A DNA stretch of 64,000 nt from Crocinitomicaceae bacterium (lineage in GTDB: Bacteria; Bacteroidota; Bacteroidia; Flavobacteriales_D; Parvicellaceae): contig PBNK01000041.1 in NCBI GenBank assembly GCA_002723085.1, positions 1 through 64,000 of the forward strand. Reading direction: 5' to 3'. Every line of letters begins with the position of its first letter. Positions within the stretch are counted from its first letter, which is position 1. Under the pieces are notes generated by a model. It was given only the letters and a program-made list of their open reading frames with translations, searched no databases and was not told the origin of the DNA. The position numbers and the translations under genes were made by a program. This document shows, piece by piece, positions 169-4,598 of this stretch.

Positions 169-2274
169 TTAAAAATTTAATTTAAATGATGTGAAAAATG
201 ATCTTCCCCAACTCATTGGTATTGATCCGCTATTGCTTGAGTGGACTCCGTTATTCGTATTGTTTGAAGTGATGGATTGAACATCTAATAAGTTTTTGCC
301 TCCAATTGATAAAATTATTCTATCGTTATTAAATGTTTTACTAAAATTTAAATCTAACATAGTGAAGTTACTTATCTCTGATTGTGAGACTTCACCATCA
401 TCATTTATAAAAAAGCCTAAAGTTCTGCCAGTGTACTTATATAATGAAGAAATTTTAATGTTAAATTTAGGTATGTTGTAAGTCATAGTAAATCTAATTT
501 CTGGTGTGAAACTAAATGAAGGAATTTCTGATGAGCTGATAAAATAGAACCAAAAAAAAGATTTAAAAACATTAAGTATGGGAATCTTAGAGGAATCTGA
601 TAGTGAGTTGTACCTTCCAATGTTAGCTAATCCAATATTAATGTTTAATTTTTCATGTTTTAAACTTCCATTTAGTTGAATACCTGTGGTTTTGTTTTTT
701 CTTAAATTAAAATATGTATACTGATTACCTAAACCAGATTGTGCAAGTGTTATTAAATTGTCAATATCATTGTAAAATGCACCAAAATCAATTTGAATTA
801 CATGTTCGTTAGTTTTTTTACTCCAAACAATATCACTTGAAAAATTAGTTGATTGTTCGGGAATGAGGTCTTTATTACCAACAATGTTATGATTAATGTC
901 TACAAAATTAAAATAAAGCTCTTTCAAGCTTGGTGCTCTGAAACCTCTAGCATAAGAGCATCTAAAATTTAAATTTTTGGTTTGATATTTAAAATTTAGC
1001 GATGGTATAACAGGTACATTGTACATAGAGTTATATGTAAATCTTACAGCGGGTTTGATTATTAATTTTTCAATTTCTTTAAACTCGTAGCTTCCAAATA
1101 ATGCATAATCTGATTGAGTTTTAAGATTCCCTTCAATTCTTTTTCCATAAGCTGTCTCATGGTTAAATTCATAACCTAATTGGTAATTATTTTTCCCAAT
1201 TAAATTAGTCCAAGTTCCTCTACTTAAAATAGTATTGAATTTTATGGTGTCTTGATCTTCAGAAGAGCTGGTTTGTTGTTGTTCAAGTGTAGTTAAATCT
1301 TTAAAGTAGGTGTTTTTTATTCTTTTATAATTGTTAAAACCTCCAAGAATTCTTATTTGACTACCAGATTCTAATTTTTTATTATAATCCAATCCAATAT
1401 CTTTTCGCCATGTATAATAATAATCATCAAAAGCTGTTTCAAAATAGGGGGATCTAGGTGTTCCTCTATTTGTTATTTTTTCGTCAAATAGATTTACAAA
1501 AGTCCTTATTGATGAATTTTCATTTGAAAGAGAATATTCAATTTTAGAAAATAATTGTTCTTTAGGTTTCCAATCTTTGAATCTTGAAGAATCGGCAGGT
1601 TTAGAAACAGGAAACTCTATAAAAACATCTTCTGAATTCCATCCATCAAAGAAATTTCTTCCACCAGAAATGTTAAGGCTTCCTTTATTTAATTTATAAA
1701 ACACACTGGCATCTAAATTATATTGCCCTACAGTTTCATAATATGAATTTAGATCAAAGGAAAATTTTTTATCGCTTGATTTTTTAGAAATTAGATTAAT
1801 GGTTCCTGCGAGTGCATCAGTTCCATAATTTACTGAAAGAGGTCCTTCAACAATTTCAATTTGTTCAATGTTGTTTAGGTTTATTTGTGATATATCAACA
1901 TTGCCATTTACCCTGCCAATAACAGGTATACCATCAATTAAAATTTTTATGTTTTGACCAGAAACACCTTGTAAAGACATGCTGCTTCCAAGTATATTGT
2001 CTTGAGATAATCTTATGTTATTCTCAAAAGATAGAACATCTTTAAGATTAACAGCTCCTAAAGCTTCTATTTTTTCTCTGTCAATTACCTTTATTTTATT
2101 TATAGATTTTTCTTTATCTATTTTTTCATATTGGGCAGTAATGACAAATGTTTCTAATTCAAATAGTTTGTTGGGAATTACTGAATCAGTTTTGCTTTTT
2201 GTTAGTTCTTGACAAAAACTATTTATAGTAAAACCAAAAAAAAATAAAACCAGTATATTTCTTCTTATTATCAA
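169..2274 (-). CDS. TonB-dependent outer-membrane receptor, probably heme/iron uptake
   Basis: A 701-residue protein with a signal peptide (about residues 1-22, cleaved near SFCQ). A plug domain follows at about 55-165, with the typical segments VNLKDVLSF, LIDGIPVIG and IEIVEGPLSVNYGTDALAGTINLI. The rest is a beta-barrel with alternating aromatic strands, ending in the aromatic-terminated strand FTSFKLNF expected for BAM recognition. It lacks the N-terminal carboxypeptidase-like domain of SusC-type receptors, fitting a siderophore/heme/vitamin receptor. It sits between two HmuY-like genes, 3 bases after one and 2 before the other, and opposite an FTR1 iron permease. This context suggests heme or iron as substrate. 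Substrate specificity is inference; vitamin or metal-chelate uptake cannot be excluded. Confidence 0.9.
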   Translation of the reverse strand: MIIRRNILVLFFFGFTINSFCQELTKSKTDSVIPNKLFELETFVITAQYEKIDKEKSINKIKVIDREKIEALGAVNLKDVLSFENNIRLSQDNILGSSMSLQGVSGQNIKILIDGIPVIGRVNGNVDISQINLNNIEQIEIVEGPLSVNYGTDALAGTINLISKKSSDKKFSFDLNSYYETVGQYNLDASVFYKLNKGSLNISGGRNFFDGWNSEDVFIEFPVSKPADSSRFKDWKPKEQLFSKIEYSLSNENSSIRTFVNLFDEKITNRGTPRSPYFETAFDDYYYTWRKDIGLDYNKKLESGSQIRILGGFNNYKRIKNTYFKDLTTLEQQQTSSSEDQDTIKFNTILSRGTWTNLIGKNNYQLGYEFNHETAYGKRIEGNLKTQSDYALFGSYEFKEIEKLIIKPAVRFTYNSMYNVPVIPSLNFKYQTKNLNFRCSYARGFRAPSLKELYFNFVDINHNIVGNKDLIPEQSTNFSSDIVWSKKTNEHVIQIDFGAFYNDIDNLITLAQSGLGNQYTYFNLRKNKTTGIQLNGSLKHEKLNINIGLANIGRYNSLSDSSKIPILNVFKSFFWFYFISSSEIPSFSFTPEIRFTMTYNIPKFNIKISSLYKYTGRTLGFFINDDGEVSQSEISNFTMLDLNFSKTFNNDRIILSIGGKNLLDVQSITSNNTNNGVHSSNSGSIPMSWGRSFFTSFKLNF

Positions 2275-2277
2275 AGT

Positions 2278-3519
2278 TTATTGAACTAGTAATTTTTCGG
2301 TAATTCTTGAATTTCCGCATATGAAATTAACAAAATATACACCAGAATTAAGATGTGATAAAGATATTTTCTTTTGGGTAAAGCCAATTGAATTTAGTTT
2401 ATGAGTGTCCACTAAACTTCCATTAGCATTGTAAATATTTAAATAGTTATCAGTAGAATGATTATTTACATCATATAAAATAGTAACCTCTTTGTTAGTT
2501 GAAGGATTAGGATAAATAGCAAATGAATTAATCTCATCTATATCCATGGTATTTGCTGAAACTATAGACTCTTTTATGAAATTTATTTTTCCGGTTGAAC
2601 TGCCTTCAAAACCGATTAATTGAATTTTCCATATGTTTTCAGAAATATCCTTAACAAAGTAACATAACGAGTCTTGAATGTCATAACTAAAAGATGACAT
2701 GTTGAATGACTTCCAGTTATAACCAATGCTATTTATAGGACTTACAAAGGAATGAGAGTTATGATCAACATTATTTACATCAACGTTTTCAGCTTTGGCA
2801 ATTTGAATGTCTTTATTAGATAAAACACCAGTTACTCCATACATTGTTCCTGAACCTAGTTTGGTAACATATTTTGTGAAAACAATATGCCAATTGGATG
2901 AAATTGGTTCTCGATCTAGTTCAGCTTTATTTTGAATAGAGTAGTATCCGAAATTTTTTGTAGAGTAAGCTGTTTTAGAAACAGATGTAACTACTTCATT
3001 GGAACCGTCTAGGTTTGCATATTTAAAGTTATATGTTCCACTTGCTAGTTTGATTATTTGTAATTTTTTAAAGTCACCATTTGCAAGCTTTATTACATGT
3101 AAAGAATCACCTGTAATATGATGAGTTATTGTGCTGTAAATACCCCAGCCAAGATCCATTCCATTAGTTGGGTCAGCACTAGAGTTAAATGCTCCAATGC
3201 TCCAAGAGGTATCTGAGTTATGTAATTCTTTCCAGTTGCTGATTCCAATAGTGTCAATTGAAGCCCAATCATTAATAGCGCCATTTGGATAGGTATATAA
3301 TTTGATGTTAGCTTGACTGTTTATTCTAATAGCAGACCCGTAACCACCAGAACTAAATGCAAGATCCCAATCATTATTATCTATATTGGCAACTTCACCA
3401 GTGTTTAAGTTATAATACGATTGATTTGAATATCCAGTTTGAAGAAAAACTGAATCAGCCTCTTGAGCTGAAATATTTAAAATTAATAAACTAAAAGCTA
3501 AGGAAATGTAATTTTTCAT
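2278..3519 (-). CDS. HmuY-like heme-binding protein with type IX secretion C-terminal domain
   Basis: A 413-residue secreted protein with signal peptide MKNYISLAFSLLILNISA. Residues about 25-320 resemble the HmuY family: YSNQSYYNLNTG, then WDLAFSSGG and AIRINSQ, and later WHIVFTKY with YGVTGVLSN. Residues about 335-413 form a type A type IX sorting domain (FAIYPNPS, then a beta-sandwich, LNSGVYFVNF and a KLLVQ end). HmuY proteins are heme-binding partners of TonB receptors and are usually lipoproteins. Here one is built for T9SS export and would be released or attached through the sorting machinery. It is the first gene of the operon with the receptor. The divergent upstream region carries two palindromic sites. 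Heme binding is inferred; the ligand residues were not identified. Confidence 0.8.
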   Translation of the reverse strand: MKNYISLAFSLLILNISAQEADSVFLQTGYSNQSYYNLNTGEVANIDNNDWDLAFSSGGYGSAIRINSQANIKLYTYPNGAINDWASIDTIGISNWKELHNSDTSWSIGAFNSSADPTNGMDLGWGIYSTITHHITGDSLHVIKLANGDFKKLQIIKLASGTYNFKYANLDGSNEVVTSVSKTAYSTKNFGYYSIQNKAELDREPISSNWHIVFTKYVTKLGSGTMYGVTGVLSNKDIQIAKAENVDVNNVDHNSHSFVSPINSIGYNWKSFNMSSFSYDIQDSLCYFVKDISENIWKIQLIGFEGSSTGKINFIKESIVSANTMDIDEINSFAIYPNPSTNKEVTILYDVNNHSTDNYLNIYNANGSLVDTHKLNSIGFTQKKISLSHLNSGVYFVNFICGNSRITEKLLVQ

Positions 3520-3579
3520 GACTGATTTTTTTTATAGAATAATATCCGGCAAAATAATTAATAAATCCTTTTTTCATCA

Positions 3580-3597
3580 ATACCTTTAATAAGGTAT
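3580..3597. promoter_or_regulatory. Putative operator 1, ATACC-N8-GGTAT
   Basis: The 18-bp site ATACCTTTAATAAGGTAT has perfect 7-bp arms (ATACCTT/AAGGTAT) around a 4-bp centre. It lies 61 bases upstream of the hmuY-like start. A second site of the same outer pattern and length lies 49 bases further on. The regulator is unknown; an iron- or heme-responsive repressor is an inference from the flanking genes. Confidence 0.5.
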
Positions 3598-3646
3598 TTT
3601 ATTCATAATCAACTATTTAAATAACTTAATTTTTAAAATTATTTAT

Positions 3647-3664
3647 ATACCATGAAAAAGGTAT
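3647..3664. promoter_or_regulatory. Putative operator 2, ATACC-N8-GGTAT
   Basis: The 18-bp site ATACCATGAAAAAGGTAT repeats the outer arms and exact length of the site at 3580-3597. Both are followed by the same AAGGTATTTT context. It lies 53 bases upstream of the iron permease start, so each divergent transcription unit has one copy at a similar distance. The inner bases are less symmetric than in site 1. Confidence 0.5.
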
Positions 3665-3716
3665 TTTTTATTGTGAGATAAAATCTTAAAATTGCACAAA
3701 ATTTAAAATAATAAAA

Positions 3717-4598
3717 GTGAATACATTTATCATTACTTTCCGAGAATCTCTTGAAGCATCTTTAATAATTGGGATTATTTATACTATTCTTCATAGGAAG
3801 CAATTGTCTTCTCATATAAAATTCCTTTGGTTTGGTTTGTTAGCTGCAGTTGTATCATCTGTAGTTTTTGCTTTATTATTAGAATGGATAAATAAATCCA
3901 TAGAAAATGAATCAATAGAAAAGTTAACTGAAGGATTGTTAATGGTTGTTACTGCTGGATTTGTGTATTATGTTATTTTTTGGTTATCTAAACACGTTTC
4001 ATCAAAGGAAGCTATTGAATCTGATACATTAAAATCCACAGCAAAAACAATGGGAGTTTTTTGGATGGTTTATTTTACTGTATTAAGAGAGGGTTTTGAA
4101 ACGGTTATGTTCCTTTTTTCTGGATCTAAGATGGATGAATCTAATTTTTATTTAAACTTTTTTGCTGGCATTTTGCTGGCTTGTGGAATTGGATATTTAA
4201 TTTTTATACAAGGGAAAAGACTTAATCTTAGAAAGTTCTTTAAAGTAACTTCATTTTTATTGGTCATTTTTGCTTCTGGGATGGTTGCCTATGGTATTCA
4301 TGAAATTGAAGAGTTTTTTGTTAAAGGTGATCATTTAAGTTCTATTGGTATTGAAGATAAAAATGATATTGGCAGAGTATGGGATATACTACAACCTACA
4401 AAAGAATTGCCTGAGGGCGCTAATCCAAGTTTTTACAATGAAGTTAAAGGAAAGTATGTTCATGTTTTACATGATAAAGGATCTGTAGGTGGTGTTCTTA
4501 AGGGATTTACAGGTTACAATTCTAATCCAAACTGGGTCGAATTTATAATGTGGATTCTTTCTTTTGGATTCGGTATTTATTTATGGAGAAAATCATAA
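3717..4598 (+). CDS. FTR1-family high-affinity iron permease
   Basis: A 293-residue integral membrane protein with about seven hydrophobic segments. It carries both hallmark REXXE iron-translocation motifs: RESLE at residues 9-13 in the first helix and REGFE at 124-128 in the fourth. The start is GTG; no ATG lies closer to the first motif. In the family (yeast Ftr1, bacterial EfeU) these Glu residues move ferric iron released by a partner ferroxidase or peroxidase. No EfeO/EfeB partner is present in the window. Its divergent arrangement with the HmuY/TonB operon, with a matching operator on each side, suggests co-regulation and movement of iron across the inner membrane. The stop codon abuts the stop of the convergent DUF423 gene with no spacing. 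Confidence 0.9.
   Translation: MNTFIITFRESLEASLIIGIIYTILHRKQLSSHIKFLWFGLLAAVVSSVVFALLLEWINKSIENESIEKLTEGLLMVVTAGFVYYVIFWLSKHVSSKEAIESDTLKSTAKTMGVFWMVYFTVLREGFETVMFLFSGSKMDESNFYLNFFAGILLACGIGYLIFIQGKRLNLRKFFKVTSFLLVIFASGMVAYGIHEIEEFFVKGDHLSSIGIEDKNDIGRVWDILQPTKELPEGANPSFYNEVKGKYVHVLHDKGSVGGVLKGFTGYNSNPNWVEFIMWILSFGFGIYLWRKS

Follow-up and report, generated by a model that had tools for sequence, protein, structure and literature searches.

Knowledge of the mechanisms that control iron uptake in Bacteroidota has been called scarce (PMC10434189). Among the described systems, Fur binds the flavobacterial box ATTTAGAATTATTCTAAAT, which has gel-shift support in Riemerella anatipestifer (PMC5609570), and in Porphyromonas gingivalis the response regulator CdhR activates hmuYR, with no binding sequence given in either report (PMC9666725, PMC10101095). 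Sites for the response regulator NarL are inverted heptamers separated by 2 bp (e.g. the engineered strong site TACCCCTAAAGGGGTA), and those that activate lie at -40/-49 in napF and at -38/-47 in yeaR (PMC4549865). The open-licence literature that we searched holds no description of the element reported here.

The element occurs in a window of 64,000 nucleotides, i.e. the whole stretch of DNA that was analysed. A 197-bp gap between an HmuY gene (start at 3519, minus strand) and an FTR1 gene (GTG start at 3717) holds two 18-mers that match ATACC-N8-GGTAT exactly: ATACCTTTAATAAGGTAT at 3580-3597 and ATACCATGAAAAAGGTAT at 3647-3664. They lie 67 bp apart, start to start, exactly as an earlier note on this DNA had written them, and that observation is confirmed as real. 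Base composition alone predicts 0.06 exact matches in 64 kb, and the probability that chance places two of them within 100 bp is ~5e-6. The features of the locus are as follows:

169 to 2274, minus strand: TonB-dependent receptor, encoded second in the HmuY operon and separated from the HmuY gene by 3 nt (Pfam PF00593, PF07715)
2278 to 3519, minus strand: HmuY-family protein with a type IX secretion sorting tail (Pfam PF14064, E 5e-11; PF18962, E 8e-14)
3550 to 3557, minus strand: predicted sigma-A -7 box TTATTTTG of the HmuY operon, one mismatch to TAnnTTTG, 22 nt past operator 1
3580 to 3597, minus strand: putative operator 1, palindrome ATACCTTATTAAAGGTAT as read on the minus strand, an exact match and, with its -7 box, a composite with one mismatch; would serve the HmuY-TonB receptor operon
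3647 to 3664, plus strand: putative operator 2, palindrome ATACCATGAAAAAGGTAT, an exact match and a composite with one mismatch; would serve FTR1
3687 to 3694, plus strand: predicted sigma-A -7 box TAAAATTG of FTR1, 22 nt past operator 2, in the same register as in relatives
3717 to 4598, plus strand: FTR1 iron permease, GTG start (Pfam PF03239, E 4e-44)

A shared downstream context, AAGGTATTTT, had also been claimed for the two sites. This holds on the plus strand only, and not for site 1, which works on the minus strand and reads AAAGGTATTGATG in that orientation. As expected of promoters for the Bacteroidota primary sigma factor, a -7 box lies downstream of each site, with one mismatch to TAnnTTTG in both window promoters and in the register found in relatives. 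The constant spacing of 22 nt from site to sigma-A -7 box goes beyond what the earlier note had seen, and suggests that each site is part of its own promoter and is bound by an activator.

Pattern searches, on which all genome-wide statements here are based, find five exact ATACC-N8-GGTAT sites in the 2.43-Mb genome against ~2.2 expected by composition, and none for the reversed control. Given that expectation, the count is weak on its own; its force comes from the locations, which are non-random and iron-linked at all five sites. Specifically, two are the window sites in the HmuY/FTR1 gap; another two, spaced 79 bp apart, occupy the interval from a DUF4856-imelysin(M75)-HTTM-TonB receptor operon to a DUF6607 gene; and the fifth immediately precedes a hemerythrin-like gene. 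In this genome FTR1 and DUF4856 belong to separate units, with sites at both. The composite of palindrome and -7 box, allowing up to one mismatch, occurs five times against 0.18 expected: in the two window promoters, ahead of DUF4856, ahead of the hemerythrin-like gene, and once on contig C33. Of the pair at DUF4856/DUF6607, one site lacks a good -7 box on its DUF6607 side. Two extra 1-mismatch palindromes are located where genes converge or inside coding DNA, and patterns with two mismatches are mostly noise in this genome.

The near-composite on C33 (one mismatch; L352:1520-1600, ~15.06 kb) faces a gene for a 212-aa protein without a family assignment. The palindrome ATGCAACATTGTTGCAT, by its look a Zur-type box, lies next to the near-composite and precedes a divergent TonB receptor gene; a Fur-family gene is located 2.7 kb from there.

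Comparison with relatives reveals that the sites are conserved. The gap between FTR1 and the DUF4856 operon contains sites in three genomes of the same family (G009, G011, and G012); in G009 and G011 they form a pair, with one site on either side. Sites also precede the hemerythrin-like gene in G006, G009, G011, and G012, FeoB in G001 and G002, and the SUF Fe-S assembly operon in G010. We then have an unbiased view from 80 DUF4856 loci of other genomes, partly from near-identical genomes and thus not all independent, which were searched for palindromes without presupposing the motif. The top palindrome ahead of DUF4856 was again ATACC-N8-GGTAT (plus a one-base extension), present at 41 of 51 loci of the closer group and at none in shuffles; the second most frequent was the Fur-like TTAGA-N5-TCTAA. 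Across 399 Flavobacteriales genomes, ATACC-N8-GGTATTG-N19..21-TAnnTTTG is found in 168, and its reversed control in none. These results, pointing to a control circuit not previously described that acts alongside Fur, place the same arrangement ahead of iron/heme-uptake genes across Flavobacteriales. In one genome (G013), 12 places include several near-identical ATACCCCTGTTGGGGTAT-like sites, which by their look belong to a repeated element and not to the regulon.

The position of the palindrome within the promoter is nearly constant. The spacer to an exact TAnnTTTG measures 22 nt in 32 of 53 site-bearing loci, and in 41 when one mismatch is allowed, with an exact TAnnTTTG expected by chance ~0.04 times per spacer. 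In the larger sample of distinct promoters, 82 of 90 have the 22-nt spacer. With TAnnTTTG taken as -12 to -5 (PMC9723704), the palindrome spans -52 to -35, is centred at ~-43.5, and adjoins and overlaps the -33 region, i.e. it has the fixed position by the -33/-35 region that marks class II operators. This near-constant distance to the -7 box, beside the -33 region, suggests a class II activator site. A repressor would tolerate other registers, and the Fur box in these promoters does so. Given that palindrome and -33 region overlap, some of the constancy might nevertheless come from promoter architecture and not from activator contact. Our best reading is that the sites represent class II activator operators, often combined with Fur repression. 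Some sites directly abut the -7 box, namely those of the sufA-sufB operon (G010) and of the gene for a 470-aa protein without a family assignment (G010/G011), with palindromes at L060:5090-5107 and L059:4970-4987 in G010 and at L062:4982-4999 in G011. A protein bound at these two would block the promoter, so the same protein may act as a repressor elsewhere.

The bases at positions 9-10 of the palindrome are almost invariably AA or TT, and are complementary in 9 of 90 cases against 41 expected. This A- or T-tract centre may reflect DNA bending.

The 90-promoter sample, which joins the returned loci with listed sites chosen regardless of function, is non-random and includes related genomes; within it, at least 72 of the 90 downstream genes are iron-linked. 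These genes include DUF4856 (29), HmuY-like proteins (13), an unclassified 400-aa protein (11), FeoA (10), TonB receptors (7), imelysin (7), DUF6607 (3), hemerythrin-like proteins (3), and a few others. The operator marks three kinds of protein without a known function, DUF4856, DUF6607, and the 400-aa protein, as iron-linked. The sites in this genome and in relatives support the earlier proposal that they serve a shared regulator of an iron/heme regulon; neither of the two contrary outcomes that the note had named, hits random with respect to gene function and a lack of conservation in relatives, is seen.

Fur boxes frequently occur in the same promoters. With up to four mismatches allowed to ATTTAGAATnATTCTAAAT, the box that has gel-shift support in Riemerella (PMC5609570), 49 of the 90 promoters carry one, against 0.4 in shuffles; it is placed either within the spacer or a little past the -7 box. 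In this genome's own promoters no ATTTAGAATnATTCTAAAT box is recognisable, the best matches having 6-8 mismatches (chance level); in G012 the FTR1 side has one with three mismatches. A separate promoter (L234:1500-2012) combines the palindrome with an overlapping Fur box (one mismatch) ahead of a methionine sulfoxide reductase-like gene.

Taken together, the element is, on comparative sequence evidence, a conserved operator of an iron/heme-uptake regulon set in a fixed promoter architecture. The two window sites are probably operators of a dimeric transcription factor that controls this regulon at sigma-A promoters, most likely by activation. Such a factor would bind the palindrome just upstream of, and overlapping, the -33 region, centred near -43.5, and would presumably respond to iron need; from operator 1 it would drive the HmuY-TonB receptor operon, and from operator 2 FTR1. 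In many relatives Fur would add a further input, by way of a separate box that lies within the spacer or near the start site.

The leading candidate for the binding protein, which we favour with somewhat less than even confidence, would be an order-wide NarL/FixJ-type response regulator encoded beside site-driven feoA and ZIP genes. The flanks of the 80 DUF4856 loci contain no recurrent regulator gene; the lead emerged elsewhere, where sites adjoin NarL-type genes. Specifically, a scan for regulators in the flanks of sites finds a NarL/FixJ-type gene directly upstream of the site that precedes feoA in G001-G004, and directly upstream of the site that precedes a ZIP transporter gene in G010 and G011; the two sets of adjacencies represent two genera. 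By a rough estimate that allows for ~40 single-copy regulators, two independent adjacencies would arise by chance with a probability near 0.02. LytTR and LysR-type genes also lie near a few sites.

The candidate is related to VraR and NarL and, by our reading of the alignment, keeps Asp55 and Lys103, as expected of a phosphorylatable receiver. Two cysteines (C106 and C126) are invariant in an alignment of five sequences and could be part of a sensor. The gene is present in 374 of 399 genomes, including some that lack the pattern; since the regulator is nearly universal and its recognition helix nearly constant, its co-occurrence with the pattern does not discriminate. In this 95%-complete assembly the regulator was not found at E 0.01, and the gene that adjoins it in G012, a member of the same genus that has the regulator, was also not found (YbaB-like, by our reading). 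The joint absence of both genes favours, without proving, an assembly gap over loss. In the 7-2-7 comparison with NarL sites, the outer TACC/GGTA ends have the right length, and the inner heptamer positions are unconserved and off the NarL consensus.

The strongest rival to the NarL-type candidate is a MerR-like activator of the MliR type, although we regard it as unlikely to be the protein that binds the operator. When mliR is deleted in Bizionia argentinensis, an imelysin, TonB receptors, and a FeoB-associated protein fall to lower levels, and MliR is presumed to act as an activator (PMC9478572). A MerR-family protein of similar size (114 aa) is encoded in this genome, but its gene has no site nearby. 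The classical binding position of MerR proteins is between the -35 and -10 boxes and not upstream (a long spacer is noted in PMC9478572), whereas the palindrome spans -52 to -35; the same study publishes no binding site for MliR.

An improbable alternative is that a metal-dependent regulator of the DtxR family uses the sites as repressor sites overlapping the -33 region. This genome has one such gene, beside a ZIP transporter gene and a TonB receptor gene, and nearly all genomes of the family have one; however, none of 30 DtxR loci carries an exact site, the strict register would be unusual for a repressor, and Fur boxes already supply iron repression in relatives. The arms of the palindrome (ACC...GGT) also run opposite to the DtxR/IdeR consensus, in which the box reads AGGT...ACCT. 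The single DtxR-family gene is found on contig C3 (L138:1315-2828), where a ZIP-like transporter gene comes next and a TonB receptor gene diverges from it.

It is still less probable that the sites are Fur boxes or are bound by a second Fur-family protein, even though the targets are iron-linked and this genome has three Fur-family genes. The palindrome, in which the earlier note had seen no match to a Fur box, differs from the flavobacterial box ATTTAGAATTATTCTAAAT (PMC5609570). In the same promoters ATTTAGAATTATTCTAAAT forms an element of its own, at offsets unlike those of the palindrome, for which reason Fur was rejected as the palindrome binder; moreover, an exact site is found at 0 of 30 Fur-family loci. 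A binder of this kind could be a divergent Fur paralogue with a new specificity. Among the binders that the note had named (Fur, DtxR, and AraC-type proteins), Fur is an unlikely one for the palindrome, DtxR lacks positive evidence, and AraC-type proteins were covered solely by a one-sequence scan of flanking genes.

An Rrf2/IscR-type site was considered because SUF and hemerythrin genes are among the targets, and was rejected because the family is absent here: Rrf2 proteins have 0 matches in this genome and in most close relatives. Exact sites were found at 0 of 10 Rrf2 loci examined.

Finally, that these are chance palindromes in AT-rich intergenic DNA, as the ~2.2 sites expected by composition and the 1-mismatch sites between convergent genes or in coding DNA might suggest, is extremely improbable in view of the conservation, the fixed spacing, the functions of the downstream genes, and the empty reversed control over 399 genomes.

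Returning to the NarL-type candidate, we tentatively propose, with rather low confidence, that Flavobacteriales may switch on iron/heme import through this nearly universal regulator acting at -43.5, layered on Fur repression, and that the present lineage may have little or no Fur input at these promoters. The operator is common to genes for FTR1, HmuY, FeoA, imelysin/DUF4856, DUF6607, and hemerythrin-like proteins in an order whose members are abundant in aquatic habitats. Its presence suggests that iron uptake in these organisms needs activation and not just relief of Fur repression. An operator with a fixed register also lets iron regulons be predicted from sequence, and a short list of regulators to test follows from it.

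Compared with the known systems, the operator resembles the R. anatipestifer Fur box in the gene classes controlled and, in relatives, often in the very promoter, but differs from it in sequence; the Fur box also lies at several offsets to the promoter and is unrecognisable in the window promoters. MliR of B. argentinensis is a presumed flavobacterial activator that affects imelysin, TonB receptor, and Feo-associated genes (PMC9478572), but the classical position of a MerR operator differs from that of the palindrome. The 7-2-7 operators of Escherichia coli NarL/NarP (napF, yeaR) share with the sites a 16-bp inverted repeat with TACC...GGTA ends, and activating sites are centred there near -42.5 to -44.5 (PMC4549865), against ~-43.5 here. 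The feoB-side site of G002 is identical to the engineered NarL site at 14 of 16 positions, and the window sites at 11 of 16, with the inner heptamer positions not conserved; the targets differ, being nitrate respiration in E. coli and iron uptake here. The candidate would resemble CdhR of P. gingivalis, a response regulator that activates an HmuY-receptor operon (PMC9666725, PMC10101095).
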